Shown here one piece after another: positions 6,312 through 42,278 of a DNA stretch of 52,303 nucleotides. The first letter of the stretch is position 1; each line of letters opens with the position of its first letter. Both the position numbers and the translations under genes were made by a program. This stretch comes from a virus, in IMG/VR virus record IMGVR_UViG_3300025669_000001, positions 1-52,303 of that record. The stretch is one strand, 5' to 3'. Below the pieces are notes generated by a model. That model saw nothing but the letters and a program-made list of their open reading frames with translations, was not told the DNA's origin and made no database searches.

Positions 6312-6330
6312 ATTATATCCAAATCTCAAC

Positions 6331-6392
6331 GATAACTTACCCCTTTAGTTATCAACTTGAACCCTTCATATTGTTTGAGGGGTTTTTGTTTT
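6331..6392 (+). terminator. End of late operon: two hairpins, the second with a U tract
   Basis: A 7-bp hairpin (GATAACT 6331-6337 with AGTTATC 6347-6353) is followed by a rho-independent terminator: ACCCTTCA 6361-6368 pairs with TGAGGGGT 6376-6383 (one G-U), then TTTTGTTTT. It ends the tail/lysis transcript just before the first early promoter. Confidence 0.85.
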
Positions 6393-6464
6393 ATATAAAC
6401 CATTGTAAATTATAGACGTATTACTATAACCAAATGAAGAGTAATAATTTTTATTAAATAAGAC

Positions 6465-6493
6465 TTGACATTGATGTTAAGGTTTATTATCTT
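6465..6493 (+). promoter_or_regulatory. Early promoter 1 (TTGACA, 17 bp, TATCTT)
   Basis: The -35 box TTGACA 6465-6470, a 17-bp spacer beginning TTG and containing GTTAA, and the -10 box TATCTT 6488-6493. One of nine promoters in the window with the same spacer length and related spacer sequence. Confidence 0.8.
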
Positions 6494-7973: not shown

Positions 7974-8312
7974 ATGAAAAAGCAAAAAGTACACCCTTTA
8001 ATGATCCAAGCAATGAAAGACTTGTTGCATTATTACGAGACAGGGGAAGGCGAAGAGATAAAAGATAATTGTGCGTTATGCACAGCCGCAAGTGAAATAC
8101 AAGAGGATTCATTATTCCATACTGGCATTTGTGAGACTATTTGCGATCCGTGTTCATGGAGAATATTCACAGACGAGTGTTGTCCTGATTTTGTTATTGG
8201 TCAAGTGGATATATCAGATGCAAGAGAAACACGAAATGAAGCATGGCTTAAAATCCGCATCCCCCAATTAAAACAATGGATAGAACATTCAATTCCAAGT
8301 GAGGAGACATGA
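7974..8312 (+). CDS. Cys-rich small protein, probable metal binder
   Basis: A 112-aa protein behind ATAAGGAAACCAAA. It has CALC at about 33-36, then ICETICDPC (about 51-59) and ECC (about 68-70), seven Cys in all, giving a likely zinc-binding core. The rest is acidic and helical. It overlaps the next gene by ATGA. Family not recognised. Confidence 0.7.
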   Translation: MKKQKVHPLMIQAMKDLLHYYETGEGEEIKDNCALCTAASEIQEDSLFHTGICETICDPCSWRIFTDECCPDFVIGQVDISDARETRNEAWLKIRIPQLKQWIEHSIPSEET

Positions 8313-8569
8313 AATTTTTAGAAGCTTTGAAGAAGTTGGATATACAGCAATATGCCGACAGAATATATAATAGTAATTCACGGGGAGAGTTGTTTCATTT
8401 GATGGATTACTTTTTTATGGCTGAACACATAAAGGACGGGATGGCTCCAACTTTCAAAGAATGGTTTGACAATATCGTGAAAGAAGCAGAGGAAACTTGG
8501 GATAGGCCAGAGTCTGTATTCCAACATATTCCAAGAATTTTAGCAGAGCAGGGATTGATAAAGTGGTAA
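8309..8569 (+). CDS. Small helical protein, unknown
   Basis: An 86-aa protein coupled to the previous gene by an ATGA overlap. It is helical with many aromatic residues and lacks Cys motifs. It ends the first early transcription unit, just before promoter 2. Confidence 0.65.
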   Translation: MKFLEALKKLDIQQYADRIYNSNSRGELFHLMDYFFMAEHIKDGMAPTFKEWFDNIVKEAEETWDRPESVFQHIPRILAEQGLIKW

Positions 8570-8586
8570 CATTTAAAAGAAAACAC

Positions 8587-8615
8587 TTGCAATTCTTATT
8601 AAAACTTATTACATT
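8587..8615 (+). promoter_or_regulatory. Early promoter 2 (TTGCAA, 17 bp, TACATT)
   Basis: The -35 box TTGCAA 8587-8592, a 17-bp spacer starting TTCTTATTAA, and TACATT 8610-8615. The spacer is almost identical to that of promoter 21299, although the -35 differs from consensus at two positions. Confidence 0.7.
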
Positions 8616-8649
8616 AGGTATACATTAATCTGATAGGAGATTTAACAGA

Positions 8650-8850
8650 ATGGGGAAACCAAAAGTAACACGACACAGAACAATCAGCCTTCGACTCGTT
8701 AACACTGAAGGTGCGGAACTTCAAGAACTCGATATAGTTGAGCGACTATTTGAACGTGAATGTACAGGCGTTGGCAAGCGTAGCCAAAGTGCAGTTATCA
8801 CAAACTTGATGCTGACGGATCAATTGGATTTTGAAAAGAATAATAAATAG
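8650..8850 (+). CDS. Small basic protein, possible ribbon-helix-helix regulator
   Basis: A 66-aa protein, first gene after promoter 2, behind GGAGATTTAACAGA. The arrangement TISLRL (a beta strand), two predicted helices and GKRSQSAVITNLML is compatible with a ribbon-helix-helix DNA-binding fold, but the match is weak. It lies directly upstream of the recombination genes. Confidence 0.6.
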   Translation: MGKPKVTRHRTISLRLVNTEGAELQELDIVERLFERECTGVGKRSQSAVITNLMLTDQLDFEKNNK

Positions 8851-8858
8851 GTGATGAA

Positions 8859-9539
8859 ATGGCTGAAGTAAAATTGACTAAATATGTTGAGGGTTCAGAC
8901 GAGCAGATAGTTTTCTTAAAGAAGATTGAAAAGTTAAATTCTATCTTTGGCGGTGAACCCGATGAAAGATTTATTACAAATCTACAAAACCAGTTTAATT
9001 ATTTGCCTATCTCTCACTTGGAAACCCTGTTGGATGAATACTTTTTCGGTCACTGGTCAACTGTTAATTTTAAGTACCAACAGATAGCCAATGAGATTTG
9101 CGGTGATTTAGAATTAGTCGTAACGCATCCCATAACAGGGGAAACCCTAACGAGATCAGGCGCAGCAAGTGTTGTCATTATGCAAGACGCAAAGACAAAG
9201 CTGATAGATTTTGCTGAACACAAAAAACCGAATGCGCTTGTAATGGGGTTTCCTAAATTGAAAGCAGAGTGTATCAAAAATGCCATTTCAAGTTTGGGTA
9301 AAAAGTTCGGTAGGGATCTAAACAGAAAGATTGTTGATAACTATGCACCACTGTATAACCATGAACCAAAAGAAGAAATTGAAGTTATCCGAAAGAACAT
9401 CATTGACGAACTCGAAAATTATGCCGGTGAAGATAAGGAAATGATTAAAGAAATGTGCAGAGAGAAACATGAAGCCGGTGAATTCACAATGGTATTTGCA
9501 AAACAGATATGCCAGAAATTAAACTTGCCGGTATCGTAA
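8859..9539 (+). CDS. Single-strand annealing protein, Rad52/Sak-like
   Basis: A 226-aa protein. Residues about 113-150 contain the pattern KLKAECIKNAISSLGKKFGRDL, which corresponds to the conserved K-A-x-T-x-A-x-K-R-A-L-x-x-F-G-x-x-x-G core of Rad52/Sak-type annealing proteins. The middle part has the expected strands (LELVVTHPITGE, then a Ser/Gly-rich turn). It is immediately followed by a YqaJ/lambda-type exonuclease, the usual partner in two-component phage recombination. Together they would resect double-strand ends and anneal the resulting strands during replication and recombination. The family call is by eye; another annealing family such as Erf is the alternative. Confidence 0.65.
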   Translation: MAEVKLTKYVEGSDEQIVFLKKIEKLNSIFGGEPDERFITNLQNQFNYLPISHLETLLDEYFFGHWSTVNFKYQQIANEICGDLELVVTHPITGETLTRSGAASVVIMQDAKTKLIDFAEHKKPNALVMGFPKLKAECIKNAISSLGKKFGRDLNRKIVDNYAPLYNHEPKEEIEVIRKNIIDELENYAGEDKEMIKEMCREKHEAGEFTMVFAKQICQKLNLPVS

Positions 9540-19181: not shown

Positions 19182-19408
19182 GTAATTATGAAAGTTTAGG
19201 AACCGTATTAAAAACACTACAAAGAAATAACTACAAAATAAAACAAAAGAGGCAAATTATGTCAATGTATGAATGCGATAAATGTGGACAGTGGAGAGAT
19301 TCAGACGATGGTTGCGCACCTTCACCGGATGGTAGTTTGGATTTAGTTTGTCCTGAGTGCTTTGATGAACTTGAAGAAATTAAGAAAGGAGAATCAAAAT
19401 GCAAGTAA
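19178..19408 (+). CDS. Small zinc-ribbon protein
   Basis: A 76-aa protein coupled to dnaB by ATGA; ATG 19259 is an alternative start. The conserved-looking part is YECDKCGQW...LVCPECFDEL, two CxxC pairs forming a zinc ribbon. It overlaps rtcB by 10 bases. Confidence 0.6.
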   Translation: MSNYESLGTVLKTLQRNNYKIKQKRQIMSMYECDKCGQWRDSDDGCAPSPDGSLDLVCPECFDELEEIKKGESKCK

Positions 19409-20580
19409 TATCTACAGAAAAAGTACCTATCAAGATGTGGCTACACGAAATAGAAGATGGGGCATTGCAACAGGCTAAGAATTTAGCGAACTTACCATTC
19501 ACTTTTAAACATGTGGCAATCATGCCGGACTCGCATCAAGGTTACGGAATGCCAATTGGCGGCGTACTCGCTACCGTAGGCGTGGTTATACCCAATGCGG
19601 TAGGCGTTGATATAGGGTGTGGCATGTGTGCTGTTAAAACGTCCCTAACCGATTTGACTGAATTACAGTTGAAACAAATTATGGGTGGATCTGCTGATTT
19701 TAAGGGCGGTATCAGGGGCCGTGTTCCGGTCGGGCGTAACCACAATAAGAAAGATCAAGAGTGGAGTGGATTTTTATTTGCTCCTGACATACCGATTATT
19801 CAGCAAGAGTTGAAATCTGCACGGAAACAACTTGGAACGCTTGGTGGTGGAAATCATTTCATTGAAATACAAAAAGGTGACGATGGTTTTATATGGGTGA
19901 TGGTTCATTCTGGCAGTAGGAACTTCGGATACAAGATAGCGAAGGAATATAATAAACTTGCTCAGAAACTTTGTACTAGATGGTATTCAAACGTACCTAG
20001 TTTTAAGGGTGAAGATGGTCTTGCCTTTTTACCTATCGATACTTACGAAGCAAAAGAATATATGGAAGCAATGAATTACGCCCTTGATTTTGCGTATATT
20101 AACAGGCGAATTATGCTTAGAGAAATAAAGAAAGCGTTTAATGATGTGGTTGAATGTGAGTTTGAACCAGAAATAAACATGCACCACAATTACGCTAGAT
20201 GGGAAAACCATTTCGGCAAAAACGTTATCTTACACCGTAAGGGCGCAACGTCTGCGAGACTTGGAGAGGTTGGTATTATACCCGGATCACAGGGAACATC
20301 TTCGTATATCGTTGAGGGGCTTGGCAATCCTGAATCGTTTAACTCATGCTCACACGGGGCAGGTCGCAAAATGAGCAGAACTGCAGCAAAGAACAACCTT
20401 GATTTAAACGCTCAGATTAAATTGATGGACGACATGGGTGTCATCCACGGAATACGACATGAAGGAAACCTTGACGAAGCACCGGGAGCATACAAAGATA
20501 TAGATACAGTTATGGATAATCAATCTGACTTGGTTAAAATTAAGGTTAAATTGAAACCATTAGCAGTAATAAAGGGTTAG
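19399..20580 (+). CDS. rtcB: RNA-splicing ligase RtcB
   Basis: A 393-aa protein behind AAGGAGAATCAAA. RtcB joins 2',3'-cyclic phosphate (or 3'-phosphate) and 5'-OH RNA ends with GTP and Mn. All signature elements are present: PDSHQGYGMPIGGV (43-56), GVDIGCGM (69-76; Asp71, Cys74 metal ligands), GGGNHFIE (149-156; His153), VHSGSRNFG (169-177; His170), HRKGAT (279-284), PGSQGTSSY (295-303), SHGAGRKMSR (318-327; His319 is the residue guanylylated in the family) and the C-terminal Lys392. Length fits the short bacterial group. In a phage it may repair tRNAs cut by host defence nucleases (inference). Confidence 0.93.
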   Translation: MQVISTEKVPIKMWLHEIEDGALQQAKNLANLPFTFKHVAIMPDSHQGYGMPIGGVLATVGVVIPNAVGVDIGCGMCAVKTSLTDLTELQLKQIMGGSADFKGGIRGRVPVGRNHNKKDQEWSGFLFAPDIPIIQQELKSARKQLGTLGGGNHFIEIQKGDDGFIWVMVHSGSRNFGYKIAKEYNKLAQKLCTRWYSNVPSFKGEDGLAFLPIDTYEAKEYMEAMNYALDFAYINRRIMLREIKKAFNDVVECEFEPEINMHHNYARWENHFGKNVILHRKGATSARLGEVGIIPGSQGTSSYIVEGLGNPESFNSCSHGAGRKMSRTAAKNNLDLNAQIKLMDDMGVIHGIRHEGNLDEAPGAYKDIDTVMDNQSDLVKIKVKLKPLAVIKG

Positions 20581-24723: not shown

Positions 24724-24879
24724 GTGTTCTTTACATTTAATGATTCTGAAGATAGAAAGGAATTGTTTATTAACTTTCACAATAAAGAGACAACTTTAAA
24801 CCTGAATGCCAGACAGTTTCGAGCAGGGTTGGATAGCGTAAATTTAAATATTAAACAAGGGGTAATTAAGTATGACTGA
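24724..24879 (+). CDS. Possible 51-aa protein ahead of the methyltransferase
   Basis: The frame VFFTFNDSEDRKELFINFHN... to TGA 24877 looks like genuine coding sequence and is open to 24700, but only GTG 24724 or non-standard codons are available as start and no ribosome site is visible. It overlaps the next ATG by 8 bases. Either an N-terminally truncated remnant or a weakly translated small gene. Confidence 0.4.
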   Translation: MFFTFNDSEDRKELFINFHNKETTLNLNARQFRAGLDSVNLNIKQGVIKYD

Positions 24880-26263
24880 ACAGAAAGAAATGTTTATTGA
24901 TAAGATTGAATTTATTTATGTAGAAAGTGTTATAGGCTCAGGATATGAAGTTCCGGTTGCCGACCTCGCTTTACGTGATGGCGTTGCATATAGGGCAGCA
25001 AGAAAGAACATGCAAATCCATTCAGCAATAATTTTAAAAATCAACGATGTATTTAGTGGGTTCTTTACTTTCCAGGTTAACCATGATGCGAAAGAATTTT
25101 GTCTATTGCAATCTGCAATGGAGTTGAATAAAAAGGACAAGAAAGTATACAGTCAAATGGTCAATGAGATTATAGAGCAAAACACTTTTGGCTATCCTAT
25201 GATTATGACCGTTAGCACAAAGCATGATTTAGAATGTCCGAAAGTTTTCGAGGCACTTGGATTTATTACGTATCTCAGTTTAAGCGGTTATGCATACATG
25301 GTATATGGAACCCTTGACCAAGTGAGAATGAAACGCCTCGCACATGCTACAATGACAAACGCATGGACAACAACCCGCTCTGATTGGTTGAAAATGAAAC
25401 GTGCATGGAATGCAGACATTGAAGAAATGGGCGAAAAGTATGATATACCTAATCCGAAATTTGCCTCTCGTGACGGTTGCTGGCAAGGATCAAACGGCTA
25501 TTCAAATGTTGTACTATCATCACACACAGTTGAGAACGGTGAAATAAAACATAACAAAGGGAAATCGTTTAACGGCAATGCTTCAGTCCTAGACCCGTTA
25601 GCTTGTGAAGTAATCCTTAGATTTTTCATGCCAACAGATGGCAAGAGCGTTTACAATCCGTTTGGTGGTGGCGTTCAATTCGGTTTCGTTACTGGATCTT
25701 ATGGTTATAAATATTTAGCCAGTGAGATAAGACAAAACCAATGTGATGCAAATAACGCATTATGCCAGGACTTCAAAAATGCAAAGTGGGTTAAAAGCGA
25801 TAGCTCAACCTATGAGCCTGAAGGAATGTATGATTTATGCTTCACTTGTCCACCCTACTACAAAGTTGAAAAGTATGTAGATTATGAGGGGGTTATACCT
25901 GACGGTGAATTAAACGAAATGGGAACATATGAAGAATTTCGTGATACTCTTTTTGAGGGATACAAGAAAGCCATTGCAAAGCTAAATGATAATTGTTTCT
26001 TCGTTGTAATGACAGGTGATTCAAGAGACAAGAACGGGGCCTATTATGGATGTGAAGCAGAACATGAATTGTTCTTCAAGGAACAGGGCTTGCATATTTA
26101 TAATAAAATTGTTTACCTTGAATGTGAGTTTACGAGATTAGCACACGCAAAAAGAACACTTGATTATCGAAAGTTCCCAAAGCGTGAACAAAAGATACTT
26201 GTATTTTACAAGGGCGACATGAAGAAAATTAAAGAACTATACCCACCGTTGGGCAGACTATAA
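24872..26263 (+). CDS. GNAT-like domain fused to a DNA methyltransferase
   Basis: A 463-aa protein behind AAGGGGTAATTAAGT. Residues about 10-145 resemble a GNAT acyltransferase: strands around IILKINDVFSGFFTFQV, then LECPKVFEALGFITYLSLSGYAYMV, the typical last helix-strand part. Residues about 230-463 form an N6/N4-type methyltransferase: NPFGGG (262-267, SAM loop with an unusual triple Gly), a SEI strand after it, and TCPPYY (325-330, a DPPY variant with Thr for Asp). The last 100 residues contain FRDTL and VVMTGDSRD as in DNA methylases. The stop overlaps the start of a radical SAM gene (TAATG). The pair may install a modified base beyond simple methylation. Confidence 0.7.
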   Translation: MTEQKEMFIDKIEFIYVESVIGSGYEVPVADLALRDGVAYRAARKNMQIHSAIILKINDVFSGFFTFQVNHDAKEFCLLQSAMELNKKDKKVYSQMVNEIIEQNTFGYPMIMTVSTKHDLECPKVFEALGFITYLSLSGYAYMVYGTLDQVRMKRLAHATMTNAWTTTRSDWLKMKRAWNADIEEMGEKYDIPNPKFASRDGCWQGSNGYSNVVLSSHTVENGEIKHNKGKSFNGNASVLDPLACEVILRFFMPTDGKSVYNPFGGGVQFGFVTGSYGYKYLASEIRQNQCDANNALCQDFKNAKWVKSDSSTYEPEGMYDLCFTCPPYYKVEKYVDYEGVIPDGELNEMGTYEEFRDTLFEGYKKAIAKLNDNCFFVVMTGDSRDKNGAYYGCEAEHELFFKEQGLHIYNKIVYLECEFTRLAHAKRTLDYRKFPKREQKILVFYKGDMKKIKELYPPLGRL

Positions 26264-31872: not shown

Positions 31873-33426
31873 TTGGAATGGGAAGATGTACAACTAGCAA
31901 AAGCACTAACAAGTGATTGGAATGTACTTGCATATGATGGGTTTGGAATAAGGCTTGACGATCAGCAACAGGAAGCCTTATATTTAATCCAACACAACAA
32001 GTATACAGAGATCCATTCAGGCCATGCGAGGGGCAAAGATTATTTAGCTGCTGCTGCTGGCCTATGCTTCCTTAATTGTTTCAGTCCTTCAAAGGTTATC
32101 TGTACAGGGCCGACTAAGTTCCAAGCTGTCAATATCAATATGGCTGAAGTGTCGAGCATTTATCGTAATTCCAAAATACCATTACCAGGAACACTTTTAG
32201 CAACCCGCCTTGATATGCCTGCCCTTGACGAATATGGGAATCTCACAGGCGAGAGAGAAACCAATCATTTCCTCACCGCATTTAAAGCAAATGACCATGC
32301 AATTGAAAACTGGACAGGCTTTCATTCCCCAAACACATTCGTAATAGCCACAGAGGCCTCAGGGCTTGACGATAGAGTGTTTAACGATGGCATAGAAGGG
32401 TTAATGACCGGAGAGAACCCTAAGTGTCTCCTAGTCCACAATCCGCACCATAGAAGCGGTGGAGCATACAAGGCATATCGCAGTAAGTTTTATGTATCAG
32501 TTGAATTATCATGTCTAGATGCGCCTAATGTATTAAGTAAAACCTATGGCATTAAAGGTCAGGTTGGTTGGGATTATGTTGCAGAGCGTGTCGAGCGTTG
32601 GTGTGATCCTGTAAAAGAAACTGAGATGTGCGAAGAGGAATACGATTTCACTTTCGAGCTTCCCGGTGTCGGTAATCATTGGAGACCTAACGATGATTTC
32701 CTTGTAAAGATTATGGGGAAATATCCCAGAGAAGATTCAGATCAAGTCATTCCTTCAGGTTGGTTAGATTTGGCACATGACCGATGGGATGAAGTAATGG
32801 AGGACTACGAACTCCACGAAGATGATGCGCATAGAACACCGTTAAAATTAGGCGTGGATGTTGCGGGTGGTGGAGTTGATAAAACGATTGCAACTTTCAG
32901 GCGTGGCAATGTCGTAGAGAAGATGGTTAACTGGCCTAAGCCTGCTGATATGAGATACATTCACCCCAACACTTTAGGTCACATAAAAAATAGCTTGACA
33001 GATTCACAAGATATAGGTTATATTGATGCGATAGGTGAAGGTGCAGGAGTTTTCCAGTTTGGCGTTGCGGACGGTCTTAATCTTGTCTGTGTCAAGGGAA
33101 GCGAGAGCGCAAAGGGTTTAACTTGTATGCATGAAGTGAAAACCTTTTTTAAGATGAGATCCTATTTGATTTGGGCGATTAGAGACGCCTTAGATCCTAA
33201 GATTGGGTACAACTTAGCACTACCAAGAAACGAAGAACTAGTTGAGGAACTAACATCATACAAGATCAAGAGACGTATGAGTGATGGTAGTATTTTGTTA
33301 GACCAAAGCGAGGATATAAAAGAGCGTATAGGAAGAAGCCCAGATTGGACTAGTTCATTGTCAATGACTTTCTTCCAAGATGCGAATACAGATCTATACA
33401 TGATAGGCGGAGGAAACAGAAAATGA
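31873..33426 (+). CDS. terL: Terminase large subunit
   Basis: A 517-aa protein starting at TTG 31873; AAGGA lies 10 bases upstream and no ATG fits. It is the packaging motor ATPase and nuclease. Walker A HSGHARGKD (48-56), a Walker B-type strand FVIATEASG (156-164), coupling region LLVHNP, and the nuclease domain opening LKLGVDVAGGGVDKT with Asp329, then YIDAIGEGAGV. The overall pattern is that of terminases found with DUF935 (Mu gp29-like) portals. Its stop overlaps the portal start by ATGA. Confidence 0.9.
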   Translation: MEWEDVQLAKALTSDWNVLAYDGFGIRLDDQQQEALYLIQHNKYTEIHSGHARGKDYLAAAAGLCFLNCFSPSKVICTGPTKFQAVNINMAEVSSIYRNSKIPLPGTLLATRLDMPALDEYGNLTGERETNHFLTAFKANDHAIENWTGFHSPNTFVIATEASGLDDRVFNDGIEGLMTGENPKCLLVHNPHHRSGGAYKAYRSKFYVSVELSCLDAPNVLSKTYGIKGQVGWDYVAERVERWCDPVKETEMCEEEYDFTFELPGVGNHWRPNDDFLVKIMGKYPREDSDQVIPSGWLDLAHDRWDEVMEDYELHEDDAHRTPLKLGVDVAGGGVDKTIATFRRGNVVEKMVNWPKPADMRYIHPNTLGHIKNSLTDSQDIGYIDAIGEGAGVFQFGVADGLNLVCVKGSESAKGLTCMHEVKTFFKMRSYLIWAIRDALDPKIGYNLALPRNEELVEELTSYKIKRRMSDGSILLDQSEDIKERIGRSPDWTSSLSMTFFQDANTDLYMIGGGNRK

Positions 33427-34772
33427 CAGGTACAATTTTAAGCAGAATGCGTGGAGTACCAGAACCTAAAGCAAAAGAAACCAACACAGCAAGAACCCAA
33501 AAGATTTCAGGACAGTCAAGGCATTCATTTCAATGTAGATTAGGCGAGGACATGAGCAAGCCTAAATACATGATTGATGTTAAGTATATTGACAAGATGA
33601 GAGCGTTACTTCCTTTCATGGATGTTATACCAAGTGCGTACAACCGACTGATAGGAAAGTTTAATTTTGAAAGCACTAATCCGCAAGTTGAAACATTCCT
33701 TAACGATCTGTACAAATCAATTCAGGTGAATGACTTTTCGCTTTCATGGCCTACATTTCAACAACAACTTGTTGACTCCTGCATTGCAAAAGGTTTCGGA
33801 GTTGGTGAAGGTGTTAGACTTGGAAAAAATGTAGCATGGGATTACCTGAAGAACATCAATGCGAACTGTATCGGATTGCACAACACTGAAGAACGGTATC
33901 ATCTTGGAATGGTTGACAATTTCAATCGGGTTGAAACATTCAAAGACATGGATCTGATATATTATTTAGCAACTGATTTAAGGGACGGTTATCCATTAGG
34001 GTATTCAATCTATCATGGTATGCCTTGGATGCTTTCGATTTTAGAACATCTATATCAGTCTATCAGCAACATGTCGTGGCGTACAGCAGATCCATCTTTT
34101 ATAATCTCAGTAACAGGCGGGAAACCTGAAGGATCAGGTGGCGACATAAACAAAATGATGAAAGCAACAAATACCGCCGCCAGTGCAATGAGAGATCAGA
34201 TAAAAGAGATTATGGAAACTAAACTTTATGGCGGTACTCGTGATGCGTTTGCCGGATTACCATATGGTGCAGAGTTAAAGATTGAAACGCTTGGAGCAGG
34301 TGGAGAGGAAATGGTCAAGGCTTTACAGTTCCCAATCGAAGAAATGATTAAGCCATGTATCGGTAAATCTGCATTACCTGATTGGCTATTCGGTTACAAC
34401 TATGGAAGGACTGAGGCGTTAAGCAATAATCAGATTATCATATTAACAGAGAACGTAAAAGCTTATCGTGATGGACTAGATCCAATCGTAGGTCGGTTCT
34501 TTGGTGATGCTTTGGTAATGGCTGGTTACATTGGTACTGATTGGTCTTTTAAGTGGGAACCCATCGGGTTACATGATAAACTTGATGAAGCACAAACGGA
34601 ACTGAGGAAAGCACAAGCCGAGAAAATCAGATGGGAAACTGCACTCTCTAAATTTGACATGGGCGTATTCAGTTTTGAACAACTTGAAATTGAATTAGGC
34701 GTGAAGTTCACAGCAGCCGAAATCCAGAAAATTCAAACTGGTTTAATCATGAAGAATGCGGGCTTGAAATAA
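33423..34772 (+). CDS. Portal protein (Mu gp29/DUF935-like)
   Basis: A 449-aa protein coupled to terL. LPFMDVIPSAYNRLIGKF and the later YYLATDLRDGYPLGYSIYHG, AMRDQIKEIM...LPYGAELKIETLGAG, LPDWLFGYNYGRTEALSNNQ follow the portal fold (stem and wing). It would form the dodecameric ring through which DNA enters. The C-terminal helices (about 395-445) bind neighbours. Directly behind it begins an accessory gene block with promoter 7. Confidence 0.85.
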   Translation: MTGTILSRMRGVPEPKAKETNTARTQKISGQSRHSFQCRLGEDMSKPKYMIDVKYIDKMRALLPFMDVIPSAYNRLIGKFNFESTNPQVETFLNDLYKSIQVNDFSLSWPTFQQQLVDSCIAKGFGVGEGVRLGKNVAWDYLKNINANCIGLHNTEERYHLGMVDNFNRVETFKDMDLIYYLATDLRDGYPLGYSIYHGMPWMLSILEHLYQSISNMSWRTADPSFIISVTGGKPEGSGGDINKMMKATNTAASAMRDQIKEIMETKLYGGTRDAFAGLPYGAELKIETLGAGGEEMVKALQFPIEEMIKPCIGKSALPDWLFGYNYGRTEALSNNQIIILTENVKAYRDGLDPIVGRFFGDALVMAGYIGTDWSFKWEPIGLHDKLDEAQTELRKAQAEKIRWETALSKFDMGVFSFEQLEIELGVKFTAAEIQKIQTGLIMKNAGLK

Positions 34773-34775
34773 CGC

Positions 34776-34804
34776 TTGACATTCTTGTTAATAATTATTA
34801 TATT
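34776..34804 (+). promoter_or_regulatory. Promoter 7 (TTGACA, 17 bp, TATATT)
   Basis: The -35 box TTGACA 34776-34781 begins 3 bases after the portal stop; spacer TTCTTGTTAATAATTAT and TATATT 34799-34804. The perfect palindrome TAATAATTATTA (34789-34800) overlaps the -10 box and may be an operator. It differs from promoter 8 by one base over the 29. Confidence 0.85.
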
Positions 34805-34848
34805 GATAGGTAGATTGATAATTAATCATGAGATGAGGGATATTTAAG

Positions 34849-35166
34849 ATGGAAATATTAGAAAAATTGTTAACTCCGTGCGAAGCAGCTAAAATGTTGG
34901 GCTATCATGAAGAGTATATTCGAGCGATGTTTAGGGATGGCACCAGGTTGAAAGGATACAAAAAGGGACATGCGGTTTTTACGACCCCGGAAGACATAAA
35001 CATTTTCAAGAAAGCGAGAAAGGAAGTTTATAAAAGGAGAGGTGAAATGATGGACACCTCAGAGTACAAAGACGGCAACATAAAAACCCGCACGGCTCTT
35101 ATAGGTGGACTTTGGAAAAAGGTAATTGATGAAATTAGACAAGCCGAAGCAGAGGCTCTTTTGTAG
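34849..35166 (+). CDS. Helix-turn-helix DNA-binding protein
   Basis: A 105-aa protein. LLTPCEAAKMLGYHEEYIRAMFRDG (about 7-31) is a MerR/excisionase-type winged helix-turn-helix, followed by KGYKKGHAVFTTPEDI as the wing. The C-terminal helices are charged. It has its own promoter inside the head operon, so it is probably expressed out of phase with head genes and may regulate phage or host promoters, perhaps its own. Confidence 0.65.
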   Translation: MEILEKLLTPCEAAKMLGYHEEYIRAMFRDGTRLKGYKKGHAVFTTPEDINIFKKARKEVYKRRGEMMDTSEYKDGNIKTRTALIGGLWKKVIDEIRQAEAEALL

Positions 35167-35225
35167 TAGTCAAAGATTCTCATAACAATACGGTAGAATG
35201 TTCAAAGGGTGATTGATAATTAAAT

Positions 35226-35582
35226 ATGAAATATAATCCACACATAAGGCACAACCCAATAGACACTAATGTTTTTTACAGATTCTATAAGAACGCCATG
35301 ACTAAGAAAACAAAAGTAACAGATATTACCTTTACCTTCCCAAACGATGAAAGCATAAACATGGGTGACGGTACAATGTTTATACCAAGAGACATGAGGA
35401 CATTTAAAATGATACTCGCAATAACAATAAACTTAGTGTTGCTTTCAGGTTTAACGTTTTGTACATTGTTTGTACTGGCAATGGGTAGTTCGTTAATGAT
35501 CGGGATTGCCTTTGTTGTGGATTTAGCGTATGTCCTGAATGTGATATTGTATGTGATTCCGCATTTTAAAAAAGGTAAGTAG
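35226..35582 (+). CDS. Two-helix membrane protein, unknown
   Basis: A 118-aa protein with a soluble N-terminal half and hydrophobic segments at about 63-84 and 89-111. It is placed between the HTH gene and MuF. Probably an accessory protein acting in the host membrane. Confidence 0.6.
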   Translation: MKYNPHIRHNPIDTNVFYRFYKNAMTKKTKVTDITFTFPNDESINMGDGTMFIPRDMRTFKMILAITINLVLLSGLTFCTLFVLAMGSSLMIGIAFVVDLAYVLNVILYVIPHFKKGK

Positions 35583-35584
35583 AA

Positions 35585-36631
35585 ATGTTCAACATGACTA
35601 ACCAAGCTTTAAAACTGTACAGCATTGAAAAGGGAATGATAGTTCCTGAATTCCATGATCCAAATTGCGGTTGCTATTCTAAATTTGTTAGCAAAGTAAT
35701 TGCACGTAACCACAGGAACAAAGCCGTTAACGATCTTGTAAAAGAATACTTCAACATCTACATGGATGAAGTTGAAATTTACGAGACTGAATTGTTAAAA
35801 GTTTTAGGCCTTCCATCACTGAATGCAGTACGTGCAGACTTTGCGAGTAAGCAGGTTGATGAAGTTTATGTTGCACCTGAAAACTGGCAGGGCAAGACGG
35901 ACGCTGTACTGAAAGGCTGGTATCAATCCATTGCACTAGATCCCGACAAGTTCCCTACAATGGCTCTCACTGGTTATTCTATAGGATTACAGAAAACGCA
36001 GGAACGCATTATAATGGCAACGCCTGCTGATAAAATAGATGAAGTTAGAATTAACGCTATATTCGCACAACCAAGCAGCGAGTCAGTTCAGAGAATAGTT
36101 ACACAGGGACAGAGTAGATTAAAGACCAAGACACTCGTTGACTTCCAGAAAATCATCAATCAAGAGATTATAACAGGTGTTGCAAACAACCAAACGCCAA
36201 TGTACATCGCAAGACAGATTCACCGCAGAGTCGGAGAGGGTCGTGCGTGGGATTGGTTAAGATTCACACGTTCGGAAATTGTTTTAGCATATGAAAGGGC
36301 TTATAACGATCAGGCAAATAAGCAAGGCATTAACTACGATAGGTGGTCAACTAGCTCTAATCCTTGTCTTATTTGCAGCCCTTTAAACAATCATGTATGG
36401 AAGCGTGGAGAAGGGCCAGAACCAGTGTCGAACACACACCCGAACTGTTATTGTATTCGCATTCCCCTATTTACATGGTCTGGCACAATTCAAAACAAAT
36501 GGAACATCGAAAGCCCCTACGGAAAAGGTATGAAGATTGAAATAGGCTACTTCCACGCAATGCATATTCAGAATGAGGTTGATAGATTGAAGGCACTTGA
36601 AAAGTTGTTTCAAATTAAGATAATGGTATAG
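35585..36631 (+). CDS. MuF-like head morphogenesis protein
   Basis: A 348-aa protein. Residues about 220-295 match the MuF (gpF/gp7) domain: WLRFTRSEIVLAYERAYND, WSTSSNPCLICSPLNNHVW (Cys pair) and THPNCYCIRIPLF. Members sit in the head next to the portal in SPP1/Mu-type phages. The 170-residue N-terminal helical part is family-typical. Normal size. Confidence 0.8.
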   Translation: MFNMTNQALKLYSIEKGMIVPEFHDPNCGCYSKFVSKVIARNHRNKAVNDLVKEYFNIYMDEVEIYETELLKVLGLPSLNAVRADFASKQVDEVYVAPENWQGKTDAVLKGWYQSIALDPDKFPTMALTGYSIGLQKTQERIIMATPADKIDEVRINAIFAQPSSESVQRIVTQGQSRLKTKTLVDFQKIINQEIITGVANNQTPMYIARQIHRRVGEGRAWDWLRFTRSEIVLAYERAYNDQANKQGINYDRWSTSSNPCLICSPLNNHVWKRGEGPEPVSNTHPNCYCIRIPLFTWSGTIQNKWNIESPYGKGMKIEIGYFHAMHIQNEVDRLKALEKLFQIKIMV

Positions 36632-36640
36632 GGGTTAATT

Positions 36641-36856
36641 ATGGATGATTATACTTTTAAAAACGGACAGAAATTTAAGGCTATGTATTTATCTGATGGG
36701 GTCAGTATTACAGTTGGCGAACATGGCTTTGAAAAAATATTGGTTGTGATGGAGTCAGGTCAAATGGCTGGCGTTCATTGGTTTGTAGTATGGAAAGATG
36801 GAAAGCTATTTGGCAAGTACAATGGCGCACTGGTTGAGACTGTTTTATTTTTATAG
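36641..36856 (+). CDS. Small protein, unknown
   Basis: A 71-aa beta-rich protein behind AGGGGTTAATT. No motif. It lies 1 base ahead of promoter 8 and may end the MuF transcript. Confidence 0.55.
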   Translation: MDDYTFKNGQKFKAMYLSDGVSITVGEHGFEKILVVMESGQMAGVHWFVVWKDGKLFGKYNGALVETVLFL

Positions 36857-36857
36857 C

Positions 36858-36886
36858 TTGACATTCTTGTTAATAATTATTACATT
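36858..36886 (+). promoter_or_regulatory. Promoter 8 (TTGACA, 17 bp, TACATT)
   Basis: The -35 box TTGACA 36858-36863, spacer identical to promoter 7 with the palindrome TAATAATTATTA at 36871-36882, and TACATT 36881-36886. It opens the second accessory block. Confidence 0.85.
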
Positions 36887-36917
36887 GAAGGTACATGTTA
36901 ATTAAGCGAGGTGAATT

Positions 36918-37112
36918 ATGTTACTATCTATCGGTAAAGCAATTTTAATTTGTGTCACAGTGAGCAGCACATTCAGGGCTATATCTGCTATGTTTTGTTT
37001 ATCTAGTAGTAGAATCGACCCTGCTGAATTTTTGACAGATGCGATAAAGCGTACCTTATTTCTATACCCAGCCCTCTTGTGGGGATTCGTGTATTTTTTA
37101 ATTCTATCTTAA
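36918..37112 (+). CDS. Small membrane protein, unknown
   Basis: A 64-aa protein behind GCGAGGTGAATT with hydrophobic segments at about 3-28 and 46-62. First gene after promoter 8; function unknown. Confidence 0.55.
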   Translation: MLLSIGKAILICVTVSSTFRAISAMFCLSSSRIDPAEFLTDAIKRTLFLYPALLWGFVYFLILS

Positions 37113-37125
37113 CGAGGGGTTGACC

Positions 37126-37419
37126 ATGCATATTGACGGAAATAAATTAGCGCACATGGCAGATGTAAACTTTTTATTGGGACGATCCATGAAGTCAGGT
37201 GGAATGAGTCTTAGTAGCGAACGTGATACAGGTATTTCAAGTAATTCCATAGTTGCAATAGCGTACGGGATTGGGGAACTTTCACAACAAGAGTTGCCAT
37301 CTGATTCTAATGATTTGCAGGCTTGTAGGAATATGTGGCACAAGTTACCTGGTCACAGACAAACAGAAGATGCAATTCAGGCAATGGTGAATGCTGAAAA
37401 TTTTAAGGATAAGAAATGA
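37126..37419 (+). CDS. Small soluble protein, unknown
   Basis: A 97-aa protein; ATG 37126 follows GAGGGG at suitable distance. Ser/Gly-rich first half (GGMSLSSERDTGISSNSI), helical second half. No family recognised. Overlaps the next gene by ATGA. Confidence 0.55.
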   Translation: MHIDGNKLAHMADVNFLLGRSMKSGGMSLSSERDTGISSNSIVAIAYGIGELSQQELPSDSNDLQACRNMWHKLPGHRQTEDAIQAMVNAENFKDKK

Positions 37420-37616
37420 AAATAAACATAAGTAATAAAAGTAAATTCGCAATTGCCATAATGTTATGTATCTCGATAGCTGGTGCAATTGACTACTTCA
37501 TTCCAAAGTGTACGGTATTTGTCGGGGTTGTTTTAGGTGTAATAATGGCTGTCCTATTTTTTGAAATTATAAGTATAACCACTAAGGAAGTCGGGGGGAG
37601 TGATGGAGAGAATTAG
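37416..37616 (+). CDS. Two-helix membrane protein, unknown
   Basis: A 66-aa protein with hydrophobic segments at about 11-27 and 33-54. Short loops, charged ends. Accessory membrane protein of unknown role, coupled to genes on both sides. Confidence 0.55.
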   Translation: MKINISNKSKFAIAIMLCISIAGAIDYFIPKCTVFVGVVLGVIMAVLFFEIISITTKEVGGSDGEN

Positions 37617-37932
37617 AACCGACAGATTTGAGCATTTGCCAACGGGTAATTTTAGGGAGGCACTGGACAAGTTAATCGGATCAGGCGAAAAGGTTGATGG
37701 TGTTGTAAGGTTTTCAAGTCAACCCGCAATATCATTTGAGATAGTCGATAGATGCAAAGATAACGATACTGAAATCCAACCTACTGTAATCCATTTCGAC
37801 AATCCAGATGTAACGATTAGATACGAGTTGGGTTTGTGGTCATGGATTAAAGTCAAGTGCAAGATGTTGAAAAACACAGTACATAATTCAATATTAAGGC
37901 TGGGACATTTGATTAAGAAAGAGGGGGAATGA
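37603..37932 (+). CDS. Small protein, unknown
   Basis: A 109-aa protein starting at ATG 37603 within the end of the previous gene (GTG 37600 is also possible). Mixed alpha/beta with a basic C-terminal helix. No motif. Confidence 0.55.
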   Translation: MERIRTDRFEHLPTGNFREALDKLIGSGEKVDGVVRFSSQPAISFEIVDRCKDNDTEIQPTVIHFDNPDVTIRYELGLWSWIKVKCKMLKNTVHNSILRLGHLIKKEGE

Positions 37933-38022
37933 TGAATCTTAAAGACCATGCAAAAGAACTTGAACATATGAGGTATACACTATGAAAATACTGTTTTTTA
38001 TTGCTCGAATTAAAGGATTACG

Positions 38023-38937
38023 ATGCCTAAACTAAAATGCAAAATATGTAAAAATGAAGTTTCTCTTTTCAAACAAGACTATGCCAAAGTAAAAGATAAG
38101 GACAAGTATGTCTGTCTTTGCTGTTTCTCAATTATCTATTTCAAAGCATATCCTAAAGGTAAGACAACATTGTTTGCACCCATCGGAACTAAAGAGGTAG
38201 GGACTGCTTTAGGTGATCAGATTTTAACTCAGCTTGTATTTGATGAATACATAAAGGACAACCCACAAGAAAACGTTATTGTCCTTAAACCTGAAAATGA
38301 TGTATTAAAATGGATCAAAGAGTTCAACCCTGACAAGATATTCATAAGCGAATTTGATTCTGGAAATAAAGAAGAAGTAGAAAGCAATCCCAAAACAATA
38401 AAATACAGAATGATAAATGAAATATGTAACTATGCGAGAGATGGGATATATCCAGAGAACCCGTTTAAGCCAAAGTATGTATTCCATAAAGATTTCAAGT
38501 ATGCAGTAATGCACGTAAGAAACATTGATAAACGTCCTGACCAAATGCAGACAAGGGACGGCAAGATTGACATTAAAAAGAACATGCCGAAAGAAGAAGC
38601 ACGGGCAATAGCAATGGAGTTGGTAAACGAGATGCCCGTTGTTATTGTTGGTAATGACAGATCAGATGATGAATTGTATACCTTGCACAATGTATTGGAT
38701 TTTAGATACGAGCTTTCATTGAACCAGATAGCCGGAGTCCTTGAAAACTGTCAACTATTTGTAGGTCGTGATTCCGGTCTGGTTCATTTAGCTGCTGCAT
38801 GTAAAGCAAATATCATAGCGTACAATTTCACTGGAAAACAATGGTTCCCCAAAATAGAACAATCTAAATTTAAAGCCTTCCTCAGAAACGTTGAATTCTC
38901 CGAAGTACTGCAAGAAATAAAAAACTTTCCTTTTTAA
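38023..38937 (+). CDS. GT9-like glycosyltransferase with N-terminal zinc ribbon
   Basis: A 304-aa protein. Residues 1-35 form a zinc ribbon: MPKLKCKICKNE and CLCC. The rest resembles ADP-heptose/GT9 transferases: APIGTKEVGTALGDQI, VIVLKPEND, YAVMHVR, VVIVGNDRSDDELY and LFVGRDSGLVHLAAACKA (about 246-263), the donor-binding helix. It may change host lipopolysaccharide or glycosylate a phage component; the substrate is not visible. It is part of the promoter-8 block inside the head operon. The same zinc ribbon starts the protein at 39040. Confidence 0.7.
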   Translation: MPKLKCKICKNEVSLFKQDYAKVKDKDKYVCLCCFSIIYFKAYPKGKTTLFAPIGTKEVGTALGDQILTQLVFDEYIKDNPQENVIVLKPENDVLKWIKEFNPDKIFISEFDSGNKEEVESNPKTIKYRMINEICNYARDGIYPENPFKPKYVFHKDFKYAVMHVRNIDKRPDQMQTRDGKIDIKKNMPKEEARAIAMELVNEMPVVIVGNDRSDDELYTLHNVLDFRYELSLNQIAGVLENCQLFVGRDSGLVHLAAACKANIIAYNFTGKQWFPKIEQSKFKAFLRNVEFSEVLQEIKNFPF

Positions 38938-38947
38938 AAAATAACAC

Positions 38948-38976
38948 TTGACATTGTCAGTAATTATCCTTATTTG
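38948..38976 (+). promoter_or_regulatory. Promoter 9 (TTGACA, 17 bp, TATTTG)
   Basis: The -35 box TTGACA 38948-38953, a spacer starting TTGTCAGTAATTATC, and TATTTG 38971-38976. It directly precedes a palindromic site. Confidence 0.7.
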
Positions 38977-38986
38977 AATCCCGAAT

Positions 38987-39017
38987 GTGTAAACTTGAGT
39001 TTACAGTGTAAACCTGA
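38987..39017. promoter_or_regulatory. Operator-like repeats downstream of promoter 9
   Basis: GTAAACT-TG-AGTTTAC (38989-39004) is a perfect palindrome with a 2-base centre. In addition GTGTAAACTTGA (38987-38998) is repeated as GTGTAAACCTGA (39006-39017) with a 19-bp step. The position just after the expected start suits a repressor site. Confidence 0.5.
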
Positions 39018-39039
39018 ATTAACATAGAGGGGTTTTCCC

Positions 39040-39255
39040 ATGCCTAAATTAGAATGCAGATGCGGTGCGAAAGTTGACGTAATGGTCAGTGATTATAACC
39101 GCCTAACGAAGAATGGAACCGTACAAGCTAAGAAACTAGCCGGTTGTGGCGTTTGTCGTGCAAGTCGAGGCAAGAGCAAGATGGTTGAAGAGAAAGTAAC
39201 AAAAGAGATTAAGGAACCGGTTAACACTCCCGTCAAACATGATTATAAGAAATAG
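39040..39255 (+). CDS. Small zinc-ribbon protein
   Basis: A 71-aa protein behind AGAGGGGTTTTCCC. MPKLECRCGAK and GCGVC form a zinc ribbon equivalent to the N-terminus of the glycosyltransferase at 38023; the tail is Lys/Val-rich and disordered. It may bind nucleic acid or a protein partner. Confidence 0.6.
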   Translation: MPKLECRCGAKVDVMVSDYNRLTKNGTVQAKKLAGCGVCRASRGKSKMVEEKVTKEIKEPVNTPVKHDYKK

Positions 39256-39264: not shown

Positions 39265-40680
39265 ATGAAGTCTTTAAAAACCACAAGTGAGAATATAGTA
39301 TTTGAATGTCCGTCAAGTCTGAGATTTAAAAGCGCAAGTGTACGGGCAGATGGTGGAAAGCTGTTCTTTTTGAATTCAGAGTTTAAGGATGAGAAGAGTT
39401 GCCTGAATTGGATCAAGGGCGGTACACCTGATAATATCACAATACGTAAATCACCCTTTCAATCAATAGTTGAAAAATCTGTCATGTCTGAAAGCGATTG
39501 GGATTTAATTGAACCCATGCTTCCGACTAAAGGATTAAAGTCAGATCAGTTCGTTTCGTTTAACGACTATCTGGCTTTTAACGTTATTGATAGAGATATG
39601 GACAGATTCCCCAAAAAGGTATTGAGTAGACTTTCAAAGACACTTGTAGGCCGTCCTAAGTTGATAGGTCATAACTGGTCTCTCCCCGGTGTTGGCAAGT
39701 ACTATAAAACAACCCTAAAGAAAGTCACCGTTGATGAAATGATAAAGATGGCCCCGAACCCTCATAGCAAATACAGATCAATGCTTGAAGAGATTGAGGA
39801 AATAGACAAGGGCTTATTCTGGCTAGTTGGAACTTATTACATCCCTGTTCACAAAGATGAAATGATTGCAGACATAGGAACAGGTTTAACAAACTCATCC
39901 ATTGGCATGATCGGAGTAGCATATGACATGGTTGCGGATGACAAAGGTAATCTGAAGTATTGGGAATACGTTTTAACCGAACGCTTGCAAGCAACTGAGG
40001 GATCGTTTGTTGGTGTTGAATCTCAATACGGAGCACAAACAAGAAAGGAACACACGCCTACGCCCATAGGCGATGAAAGCCACTCAAATAAGGGTGGTGA
40101 TATAGAGGGAGATCATTTAGATAAAGATGATGAACCCTTGGCGATTGAAAGTACTAAAGGAGTTAATATGAAAATTGAATTAAAATCAATTGGTATTGTA
40201 AAGGAAATTACTGAGATGGTTGAGCTGCCCCATGTCCTTGAATCAATTGAAACAAAAGTTTCTGATATTGTTGATGAAAATACAAGCCTAAAAGAACAGG
40301 TCGAAACATTGACAACTGAAAGAGACGAAGCGGTTAAAGTGCAAGATGATTTTAATGCACTTAAAGATTCTGTTGGCGATTTGAAACCAGAGCAGGTTAA
40401 AGCCGCACATGAATCTATTGAGAAAACAGCCAAAGAAGCTGAAGAGTTGAAGCTTGACTTGGTGAAAAAAGTAGTAGCCGGTTACATTCTGAATAAGTCT
40501 TTAGAAGACACACCGGAGAAAGTCGAAAAACGTACTGCATCATTAATGCTATGGGATATTGACGAACTAAAAGATATTGAGAAATCCCTGGAATTAGAAA
40601 CTGCCGAACCGGGTACACCCCAGAGTGGCGGTAATGGTGAAGCTGAGAAGAAGTATGTCCCAAAATTAAGTTTAGGTTAA
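39265..40680 (+). CDS. Prohead protease with C-terminal scaffold domain
   Basis: A 471-aa protein. Residues about 70-250 form the protease: LAFNVIDRDMDRFPKKVL, LVGRPKLIGHNW (His136), and TGLTNSSIGMIGVAY with candidate Ser211/Ser212, in the order seen in HK97-type prohead proteases. From about 300 on the protein is a Glu/Lys-rich coiled coil as in scaffolding proteins, including a long heptad stretch at 335-400. An internal ribosome site and ATG 40168 would give the scaffold alone, as in lambda C/Nu3. Confidence 0.75.
   Translation: MKSLKTTSENIVFECPSSLRFKSASVRADGGKLFFLNSEFKDEKSCLNWIKGGTPDNITIRKSPFQSIVEKSVMSESDWDLIEPMLPTKGLKSDQFVSFNDYLAFNVIDRDMDRFPKKVLSRLSKTLVGRPKLIGHNWSLPGVGKYYKTTLKKVTVDEMIKMAPNPHSKYRSMLEEIEEIDKGLFWLVGTYYIPVHKDEMIADIGTGLTNSSIGMIGVAYDMVADDKGNLKYWEYVLTERLQATEGSFVGVESQYGAQTRKEHTPTPIGDESHSNKGGDIEGDHLDKDDEPLAIESTKGVNMKIELKSIGIVKEITEMVELPHVLESIETKVSDIVDENTSLKEQVETLTTERDEAVKVQDDFNALKDSVGDLKPEQVKAAHESIEKTAKEAEELKLDLVKKVVAGYILNKSLEDTPEKVEKRTASLMLWDIDELKDIEKSLELETAEPGTPQSGGNGEAEKKYVPKLSLG
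40168..40680 (+). CDS. Nested scaffold protein (internal start)
   Basis: AAAGGAG at 40156-40162 stands 5 bases before ATG 40168, in frame with the protease. The product is the 170-residue C-terminal coiled coil (residue 302 on). The strong site in the middle of a gene is unlikely by chance and matches the protease/scaffold arrangement of many phages. Confidence 0.6.
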   Translation: MKIELKSIGIVKEITEMVELPHVLESIETKVSDIVDENTSLKEQVETLTTERDEAVKVQDDFNALKDSVGDLKPEQVKAAHESIEKTAKEAEELKLDLVKKVVAGYILNKSLEDTPEKVEKRTASLMLWDIDELKDIEKSLELETAEPGTPQSGGNGEAEKKYVPKLSLG

Positions 40681-40690: not shown

Positions 40691-41152
40691 ATGGGTGACA
40701 TTTTACAAAGAGGTGGAACAAAAGGTGGACTGATAGTAACCGGTTGTATTCCTGACGCTACCTTTCTAGCGGAACTCAAAGTTCTGATTGCAGCAGATAC
40801 AGAGATTGAAAACTTGATGGTCGGCCTTACCTTTGCCGACAATTATGAAGTGACAAGCCCCGCAGACGGTGCAGCCCCCGATGGGATCATTATTGCGCAC
40901 AGAGAAACAAGTGCCGCTGCCGGTAGTAGCTATGAATTGACAGTAAGAATGATCAATTACACAGATCAAAACGGTAACTTACATGCACCGGTAGCAGTCC
41001 AGACATTCCTATATAGTACAGTTCTTGCGTTACAGGATACGGTTGTTATTGATGGTGCTGATTACAAGTATGTAAAAGATGGGACAACGGGCGGTTTTGG
41101 TGTTGTAATTTCGGTTGACACCACTAACACAGAAGTAGACGTTTTAATCTAA
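40691..41152 (+). CDS. Head decoration-like protein
   Basis: A 153-aa protein between scaffold and capsid, behind AAGGAGTTAAAG. Glycine-rich N-terminus (GGTKGGLIVTG), then a beta-rich body. The location suits a decoration or capsid-stabilising protein; the sequence itself is not recognised. Confidence 0.55.
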   Translation: MGDILQRGGTKGGLIVTGCIPDATFLAELKVLIAADTEIENLMVGLTFADNYEVTSPADGAAPDGIIIAHRETSAAAGSSYELTVRMINYTDQNGNLHAPVAVQTFLYSTVLALQDTVVIDGADYKYVKDGTTGGFGVVISVDTTNTEVDVLI

Positions 41153-41165: not shown

Positions 41166-42278
41166 ATGGCTAACATTGTAAAAGAAAAAGGATTAAAAGG
41201 GGTTGACTTCATAGATGATAACTTTACAGTTGACATCTACAAAGAAGCCCGTGATAATGATGTAACCGTTTCAATGATGCTCGAAGAGGCAAGACAGGAT
41301 AAACGTGCCGAAGCTTCACCGTACATCGGAATGGACAAATCTGAAGTAATGAAAATGAAAGCAGGAATGAAAGCAGCCGGTCTAATTGCACCACAGACAG
41401 CACTTGAAGAGGCTCTTCAGAAATCAGGCATTCGGTTAACTGATAAAGTGGACAAGTTCTTTTCATACGGTAACACTGAATTGTTATTTCCTGAAGTTAT
41501 TTCAGATCAGGTTTATTCAGGTGAATTGAAAAACTCACAGGTTGACCAGATTGTATTTAACCGTGAAGTAATTGATTCAGACAGTTTCTCTAAACTTTAT
41601 CTTGACCAGCCTGAAAAAGATATTGATTTACGAGAGATCGTAAAGCTTGAAGATCTGCCCGAGACACAAATCAGAACAAGCGAACGTAACATTCGATTGA
41701 ATATGTACGGACGTTATCTGAAGATTTCCAAATACGACCGTAACAAAATGAGCATTAAAGCGTTGAGTCGTTTCTTGGATCTTATCGGATTACAGATTGC
41801 CGTACGGAAAACTGATCTTATGTATTACAGAGCAAGAAATGGTGACGGTAACACAGGGAGCACACCTGGTTCAACCCTGACCTGTGGTGATGGTGCTGAT
41901 GCAATCAGTTTCAAAAATACTATCGCATGGGCCGCACAACTTCCTACACCGTACAAACTTGATAAATTCGCAGTTAGAAAAACCAACTGGATTACTTGGA
42001 TTACTCGCTTGTACGATGGAACTACAACCTCAATCGGTAACGATAAATTTAACGCTTTCCCCGAAGCTTTAGAATGGGACAGATCAGTAGCGTTGACTGC
42101 AAACTATGGTATCGGTTTTGATACACGTTATGCAATCGAAGAAGTCTCAACCGGTGCGCCTCTTGTCGAAGCAGAGAATATCGTGAGACAGGTTGGTGAA
42201 GGAACAGCAATCTCAACTATGTTTGAATTCACAATTGGCGATAACGATGCAATTGCAGTTCTGGATATGAGTTCATAA
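41166..42278 (+). CDS. Major capsid protein (HK97-fold candidate)
   Basis: A 370-aa protein behind AAAGGAGAAAACCCA. The first about 110 residues are helical (a possible delta/N-arm region); then SYGNTELLFPEVISDQVYSG, a region of charged strands (IREI-like V...LPETQIRTSERNIRLNMYGRYLKIS) and a long helix with LSRFLDLIGLQIAVRKTDLMYY as spine helix. The order and size fit an HK97-fold capsid protein, and the position after protease/scaffold supports it. Most abundant virion protein by expectation. Confidence 0.8.
   Translation: MANIVKEKGLKGVDFIDDNFTVDIYKEARDNDVTVSMMLEEARQDKRAEASPYIGMDKSEVMKMKAGMKAAGLIAPQTALEEALQKSGIRLTDKVDKFFSYGNTELLFPEVISDQVYSGELKNSQVDQIVFNREVIDSDSFSKLYLDQPEKDIDLREIVKLEDLPETQIRTSERNIRLNMYGRYLKISKYDRNKMSIKALSRFLDLIGLQIAVRKTDLMYYRARNGDGNTGSTPGSTLTCGDGADAISFKNTIAWAAQLPTPYKLDKFAVRKTNWITWITRLYDGTTTSIGNDKFNAFPEALEWDRSVALTANYGIGFDTRYAIEEVSTGAPLVEAENIVRQVGEGTAISTMFEFTIGDNDAIAVLDMSS

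Follow-up and report, generated by a model that had tools for sequence, protein, structure and literature searches.

A zinc-ribbon glycosyltransferase resident among moron-like genes in the head operon of uncultured phages

Genes of unknown function that break the conserved order of phage head genes are known from the Bacillus phage SPP1. In the part of the report cited here, open reading frames (ORFs) 3-5, 8-10 and 14 of its head region are called morons, and such genes also separate gp7, its MuF homologue, from the capsid module (PMC6316719). Glycosyltransferases (GTs) encoded in phage genomes are usually taken as morons that act on the host surface. The modification of a phage's own virion by such an enzyme is an established phenomenon as well: the mycobacteriophage GTs Che8 gp110 and Corndog gp38 glycosylate capsid and tail tube, according to the cited excerpt (PMC12363180). 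In addition, the GT9-like core of the protein O-heptosyltransferase TibC is described in the cited passages as acting on protein (PMC4358343). Here, we analyze the head operon of IMGVR_UViG_3300025669_000001, a virus contig from an environmental sample whose whole 52,303-bp record (positions 1-52,303) forms the window and which carries a 127-bp repeat at its ends. Nine extra genes, small or enzymatic, interrupt the head genes at the portal-MuF and MuF-protease junctions, among them a GT with an N-terminal zinc ribbon and a stand-alone zinc ribbon gene. We regard it as reasonably probable that this is a head operon with lineage-specific moron-like genes and an older resident pair of ribbon and GT, whose GT would glycosylate a virion protein.

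The GT gene (38023-38937) and the stand-alone Cys4 ribbon gene (39040-39255) lie on the plus strand in a series of head genes that runs TerL (31873-33426) and then, likewise on the plus strand, portal protein (33423-34772; phrog_30703, 3.4e-27), MuF minor head protein (35585-36631; phrog_595, 2e-8; a hidden Markov model (HMM) family across relatives), head protease (39265-40680), a probable head decoration or structural protein (40691-41152) and major capsid protein (MCP; 41166-42278; phrog_3922, 7.8e-34). The protease is assigned by position and a chain of HMM homology, its direct PHROG match being weak, and the decoration protein by a weak match to phrog_4588 (0.0068) and its conserved position. 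Chance or artefact as the source of this order was rejected, since independent relatives have it too, as do the fragments L005 and L033, which match the window at 100% identity. The relatives were found by scans with portal, TerL, GT, MCP, MuF and protease, yielding 16 distinct head modules with MuF, in which genes for portal, MuF, GT, ribbon, protease, decoration protein and MCP were identified with iterated HMMs: A (the window), B (L006 and L035, with a 1277-bp overlap of 100% identity), C (L007), D (L040, a contig that binning placed in a Pseudomonadota metagenome-assembled genome (MAG)), L009, L064, L065, L066, L068, L069 and L071-L076. Eleven modules reach the protease (A, B, C, D, L064, L065, L066, L069, L072, L073 and L076), and eight of them (A, B, D, L064, L065, L072, L073 and L076) have an intact GT between MuF and protease. 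In C the GT is a decayed relic of short pieces that keep their order, with one piece inverted and a stop present; a GT relic with an internal piece inverted lies at L002:12642-12990. L066 and L069 have no GT, and none turned up in the full records reached via them or via their copies L067 and L070.

The GT consists of a zinc ribbon (residues 1-45) and a catalytic part (residues 46-304), and profile searches and a structural model point to a GT9-type enzyme. Against Pfam Glyco_transf_9 (PF01075; cut-off 22) the window GT scores 33.5 bits and the L040 copy 23.9 bits. Invariant in all eight GTs are C6, C9, C31 and C34 within the first 45 residues, G64 and D65, and D250, G252 and H255, where the spacing D250-x-G-x-x-H255 is taken from the window copy; D65 aligns with the GD motif of WaaF in a weak alignment. 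A catalytic Asp and a nucleotide-sugar motif are predicted from sequence in every copy. An AlphaFold model built on four sequences had a low pLDDT (66.6), and the good model from eight sequences (pLDDT 87.9) displays a GT-B fold whose best structural matches are GT9 enzymes (Z 16.4, 15.6 and 14.5, as opposed to ~11 for other GT-B folds), led by the Veillonella GT9 3tov (Z 16.4, root-mean-square deviation (rmsd) 3.5, 241 aligned) and WaaF (Z 15.6, rmsd 3.9, 233 aligned). Pfam, NCBIfam, a PDB profile search and the structural model agree on GT9. The family of lipopolysaccharide (LPS) heptosyltransferase I, TIGR02193, matches all eight members (best 5.2e-9), but the score of 35.8 bits falls far short of its equivalog cut-off of 185.3, and the GT reaches none of the NCBIfam equivalog cut-offs where one is given. 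It shares the GT-B fold and the GD and D-x-G-x-x-H motifs with WaaC, WaaF and 3tov, and is set apart from them by 13-18% identity in structural alignments, its N-terminal Cys4 ribbon, its location among phage head genes and its distance from the equivalog cut-offs. A TibC-type (BAHT) identity, attractive after the first fold search, was rejected on architecture. Both enzymes combine a GT9-like catalytic core with a Cys4 module, but in TibC, as described in the cited passages, the metal finger is inserted in the C-lobe and a beta-barrel of 97 residues is N-terminal (PMC4358343), whereas here the module with C6, C9, C31 and C34 is itself N-terminal, the catalytic domain starts after only ~45 residues, and the structural match (Z 13.3) ranks below WaaC and WaaF.

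The stand-alone ribbon is the most constant of the extra genes. In 11/11 modules that reach the protease, a Cys4 ribbon gene precedes it at a distance of 0-2 genes, with that of D assigned by Cys pattern and place alone, those of L064, L066, L072, L073 and L076 first chosen by eye and later backed by clustering, that of B recovered with E 0.0022 in the iterated HMM search, and that of C clustering with the window ribbon among 112 ORFs. An HMM built from 13 stand-alone ribbons and run against 6144 ORFs finds GT N-termini as its best non-training matches: six of nine GT ORFs score at E<=0.025, ahead of the first non-GT (0.15), while two of the remaining three fall below it and one is not among the matches listed. 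In the reverse search, with the GT ribbon as query, stand-alone ribbons come first, and unsupervised phmmer clustering unites the GTs and several ribbons into one family. On this evidence, the GT's own ribbon is homologous to the one encoded beside the protease.

The history of the GT follows that of the head genes in its branching order. The best maximum-likelihood tree of the eight intact copies has a topology identical to the concatenated portal, MuF and protease tree and to the MuF tree. In the approximately unbiased test the GT data are compatible with the head topology (p=0.77), whereas those of the portal alone and the protease alone are rejected (0.018). With two close pairs collapsed, six lineages with 105 possible topologies remain, so that a match of the GT and head trees by chance is expected at ~1%. 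In 995 bacterial genomes (398 + 296 + 301, the sets of 296 and 301 being searched at a stricter E-value limit of 1e-10), the only full-length GT match is in the MAG holding L040, and the other bacterial matches listed cover the C-terminal part of the GT only. The decayed copy in C indicates that cargo can be lost, and because the GT has been lost in some lineages it would be useful but dispensable. We take the GT to be a long-standing but dispensable component of the head module, apparently handed down along with the head genes.

The location of the GT, its inheritance and the ribbon that it shares suggest that its target lies within the particle under assembly. We infer that the GT would be expressed late and would use a nucleotide-activated sugar, ADP-heptose-like to judge by the fold, as donor. 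Its ribbon would dock the enzyme at the assembling head, on a partner that is also bound by the stand-alone ribbon, and a virion protein would be glycosylated there, with the sugar possibly O-methylated in relatives with an adjoining methyltransferase. Such genes adjoin the GT in L040 (Methyltransf_24/CmcI) and L065 (Methyltransf_24); a Methyltransf_23-like gene is beside it in L064 (all by Pfam), with a homologue in L076, where a cupin gene adjoins the GT as well. In the relatives concerned, these neighbours suggest additional modification of the sugar. In its most specific form, in which an old head-module GT of uncultured phages is recruited to the prohead by the ribbon that it shares with the small protein next to the protease, and glycosylates (in some lineages also methylates) the capsid or portal as the head assembles, the proposal is put forward tentatively. 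Alternatively, the GT, in some relatives with the methyltransferases, may change LPS or a different glycan of the host cell, and its position in the head operon would merely provide late expression. That the nearest curated families are LPS heptosyltransferases (TIGR02193, though far under the cut-off), that the fold fits WaaF, WaaC and GT9 best, that the GT is dispensable and that Methyltransf_24/CmcI-type methyltransferases also occur in surface-glycan pathways is all in keeping with a host-surface moron, and the enzyme class fits this equally as well as virion glycosylation. It is less easily reconciled with a GT inherited in step with head genes at one fixed place, nor with a fused ribbon that it has in common with the gene beside the protease and that none of the bacterial GT9 matches listed possesses. 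Modification of the host surface, which would block adsorption of other phages or re-adsorption of the phage's own progeny, is the main competing account, and we consider it rather unlikely.

Several points weigh against the GT as an old, virion-directed resident. GT9 enzymes act mostly on LPS, and instead of docking the enzyme the ribbon might act as a regulator similar to Com of phage Mu. With the GT missing or decayed in 3/11 modules, it is not essential. A simple co-divergence in terms of distances is supported with eight taxa (GT-head correlation 0.77-0.81) but fails once L072 and B are left out, the correlation dropping to ~0 or below with six taxa, while that between head genes stays at 0.73-0.76; deep co-inheritance therefore rests on topology. 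The inner supports of the GT tree are weak (53, 75 and 91), and neither the portal tree nor the protease tree has the head topology, so the markers partly disagree. The topology and distance results would be reconcilable if GT distances have reached saturation at 22-38% identity, and a few deep exchanges of the GT may have taken place.

The remaining extra genes, all on the plus strand, behave differently from the ribbon and GT. The portal-MuF junction holds an HTH_17/excisionase-like DNA-binding protein with a helix-turn-helix (HTH) domain (34849-35166; PF12728 1.2e-5, just under the Pfam cut-off; phrog_66 3e-4) and a membrane protein assigned by hydropathy (35226-35582). After MuF follow a 71-aa unknown (36641-36856), which has no counterpart in the intervals of other modules, a 64-aa membrane protein with two transmembrane (TM)-like stretches (36918-37112), a 99-aa unknown (37120-37419; phrog_1229 8.5e-7), a 66-aa membrane protein with a TM segment (37416-37616) and a 110-aa unknown (37600-37932). 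Clustering of 112 interval ORFs from the modules by unsupervised phmmer finds no counterpart of 6/9 extra genes in the matching intervals of the 15 other modules; the HTH gene, the first membrane gene and the 64-aa, 99-aa and 66-aa genes are lineage-specific, whereas the 110-aa gene is common only to the nearest relative B, at the same place. Each relative holds different small genes at its head junctions, and most of the block is, as judged from these comparisons, probably fluid, moron-like cargo that fills both junctions. The GC content of all nine genes lies within 1.6 standard deviations (<=1.6 sd) of the gene mean, so the block is not marked as foreign, and none of the nine has the differing base composition of a moron. 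A 53% homologue of the 71-aa gene is encoded outside the head operon in B (L006:1-159). A defence function was considered for the block and rejected, as PADLOC returns weak and partial matches only (a 4TM effector at 8e-4 for the gene at 35226, DpdE at 7e-4 for GT residues 58-113, and RecD at 0.028). In the MuF-protease zone of two relatives, a 226-aa family is encoded on opposite strands (L009:7260-7940, minus strand, and L065:7649-8329); it has no Pfam match, and its YIEQDC stretch is presumably a hint of a GT-A-like enzyme.

The initial annotation had read the whole block as morons, independent cargo inserted between portal, MuF and protease. Gene order bears out that both pairs are split by HTH, membrane, zinc-ribbon, glycosyltransferase and small genes, and the moron label suits the six unique genes and the 110-aa gene, but not the ribbon and GT, which are residents: independence is contradicted by their constant place between MuF and protease, the agreement of the GT and head trees and the shared ribbon. 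Identical gene content and order in all relatives, which that annotation had named as grounds for refuting morons, is seen for the ribbon, nearly so for the GT and not for the rest. In the strictest version of the claim, each of the nine genes would be an ordinary, independent moron and the junctions would be hot spots for insertion, at which the GT is frequent only through repeated capture or exchange. The unique genes, the lack of correlation between GT and head distances without the close pairs, the precedent of SPP1 and a 98-aa family found at the portal-MuF junction in C but after MuF in L075 lend this some weight; set against the exactly matching GT and head topologies, a GT at the same place in 8/11 modules with a relic there in C, and the lack of a GC anomaly, we hold it to be quite improbable.

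Three promoter-like sites on the plus strand accompany the block: TTGACA-17-TATATT directly 3' of the portal stop (34774-34806), TTGACA-17-TACATT (36856-36888) and a third upstream of the ribbon, protease and capsid genes (38946-38978). They belong to a class of nine predicted sigma-70-type sites, all on the plus strand, with a TTGACA-like -35 element, a spacing of exactly 17 nt, a TAnnTT-like -10 element and a partly conserved spacer (TTGACATTnnnGTTAA...), whose GTTAA could be an operator overlapping the promoter. The six further members lie outside the head block (window 6463, 8585, 14934, 16227, 21297 and 24672). In leave-one-out scoring each of the nine ranks above all other positions on both strands, a test that is partly circular because the same sites were initially chosen by score; the near-exact pair at 34775/36857 has an expectation of 0.00 in shuffles. 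A generic sigma-70 scan gives no excess (41 found, 41.3 expected), and neither do terminator-like sites between 30000 and 44500 (9 found, 10.1 expected). The junction after the portal has a same-class site in B (L006:12855), and the place before the ribbon has such sites in B (L035:1736) and C (L007:14445), while no clear member was found at the portal and ribbon junctions of more distant relatives. The promoter upstream of the ribbon is shared with B and C, the two nearest relatives, and so belongs to the backbone; the putative transcription units of the block continue into or towards backbone genes. The sites of the head block are, on this comparison, apparently part of the lineage backbone and did not arrive with the cargo. 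The three promoters that the initial annotation saw heading the blocks are thus real members of this class, whereas their designation as early-type is unsupported, with 6/9 sites elsewhere and no information on timing.

Portal and MuF, described beforehand as usual neighbours of each other, and MuF likewise of the protease, abut or overlap in 7/16 modules in the case of portal and MuF and are split by at least 295 bp in 9/16, whereas MuF and protease are never adjacent, being at least 578 bp apart in 11/11 modules that reach the protease. Portal identity among relatives is just 22-46%, except for the L072/L073 pair (89%), and it is across this divergence that ribbon and GT hold their position. 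Against 50,697 phage records, megablast with window positions 28000-52303 gave no match, and tblastn led to five remote records for the portal, two for MuF and none for the GT with either the window or the L040 copy. Among further sequences, L067 and L070 were dropped as copies of L066 and L069, as judged by equal ORF lengths and E-values; L062, L063 and L077 duplicate the contigs of C and B, and L078, a further 3300005915 contig matching the B protease, stands outside the count. Also uncounted are L008 and L011-L032 (terminase-only matches, no portal homologue; L030 is identical to part of L006), L010 and L041 (contigs that stop within the portal) and L039 (remote portal and MCP similarity only). 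The gut phages L058-L060, which have contiguous portal, protease and MCP genes without MuF or GT, are outside the 16 modules, as is L061, the Microcystis phage MACPNOA1 (KY697807.1). In the latter, portal and MuF matches fall within one ORF annotated as 'glycerone kinase' (4296-6467) and the protease match in one annotated as 'nicotinate-nucleotide diphosphorylase' (8165-9250); both annotations look wrong. Hint/intein-splicing insertions at a conserved THPxC motif occur in four MuF genes (L009:4318-5805, L064:6561-8547, L071:2559-4907 and L076:6024-8156); three of the four match DUF559/MTES_1575/Vsr-like nucleases, and the C-terminal part of the L064 intein is in a different frame. The L073 MuF is far longer than that of L072, and a radical SAM-type gene stands immediately upstream of the terminase genes in L040 (882-2201). 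Elsewhere in the window, an RtcB-type RNA ligase (19399-20580) and a DNA methyltransferase (24872-26263) are phage-encoded, and neither RNA families nor tRNA genes were found.

In comparison with SPP1, the interruption of conserved head order by genes of unknown function is alike, including at the MuF-capsid side. Two of the nine extra genes here are conserved residents, unlike in SPP1, and the block has promoters of a genome-wide class, whereas for SPP1 no late-promoter consensus related to PL1 was found (PMC6316719). Cargo in head operons is already known from SPP1, and most of this block is ordinary in that sense, with junctions gathering small lineage-specific genes. The combination of ribbon and GT9 enzyme in a head module appears new: among the papers listed on phage glycosyltransferases and head genes, no title or abstract opening describes it. 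As in Che8 and Corndog, a phage GT may modify its own virion, here predicted from genes alone. If the GT is inherited with head genes and tagged by a domain of a head-adjacent protein, the virion becomes the likelier target. If this is true, glycosylation of the particle would be an old trait of the whole phage group, and there would be a testable, sequence-defined way to separate virion-directed from host-directed glycosyltransferases.

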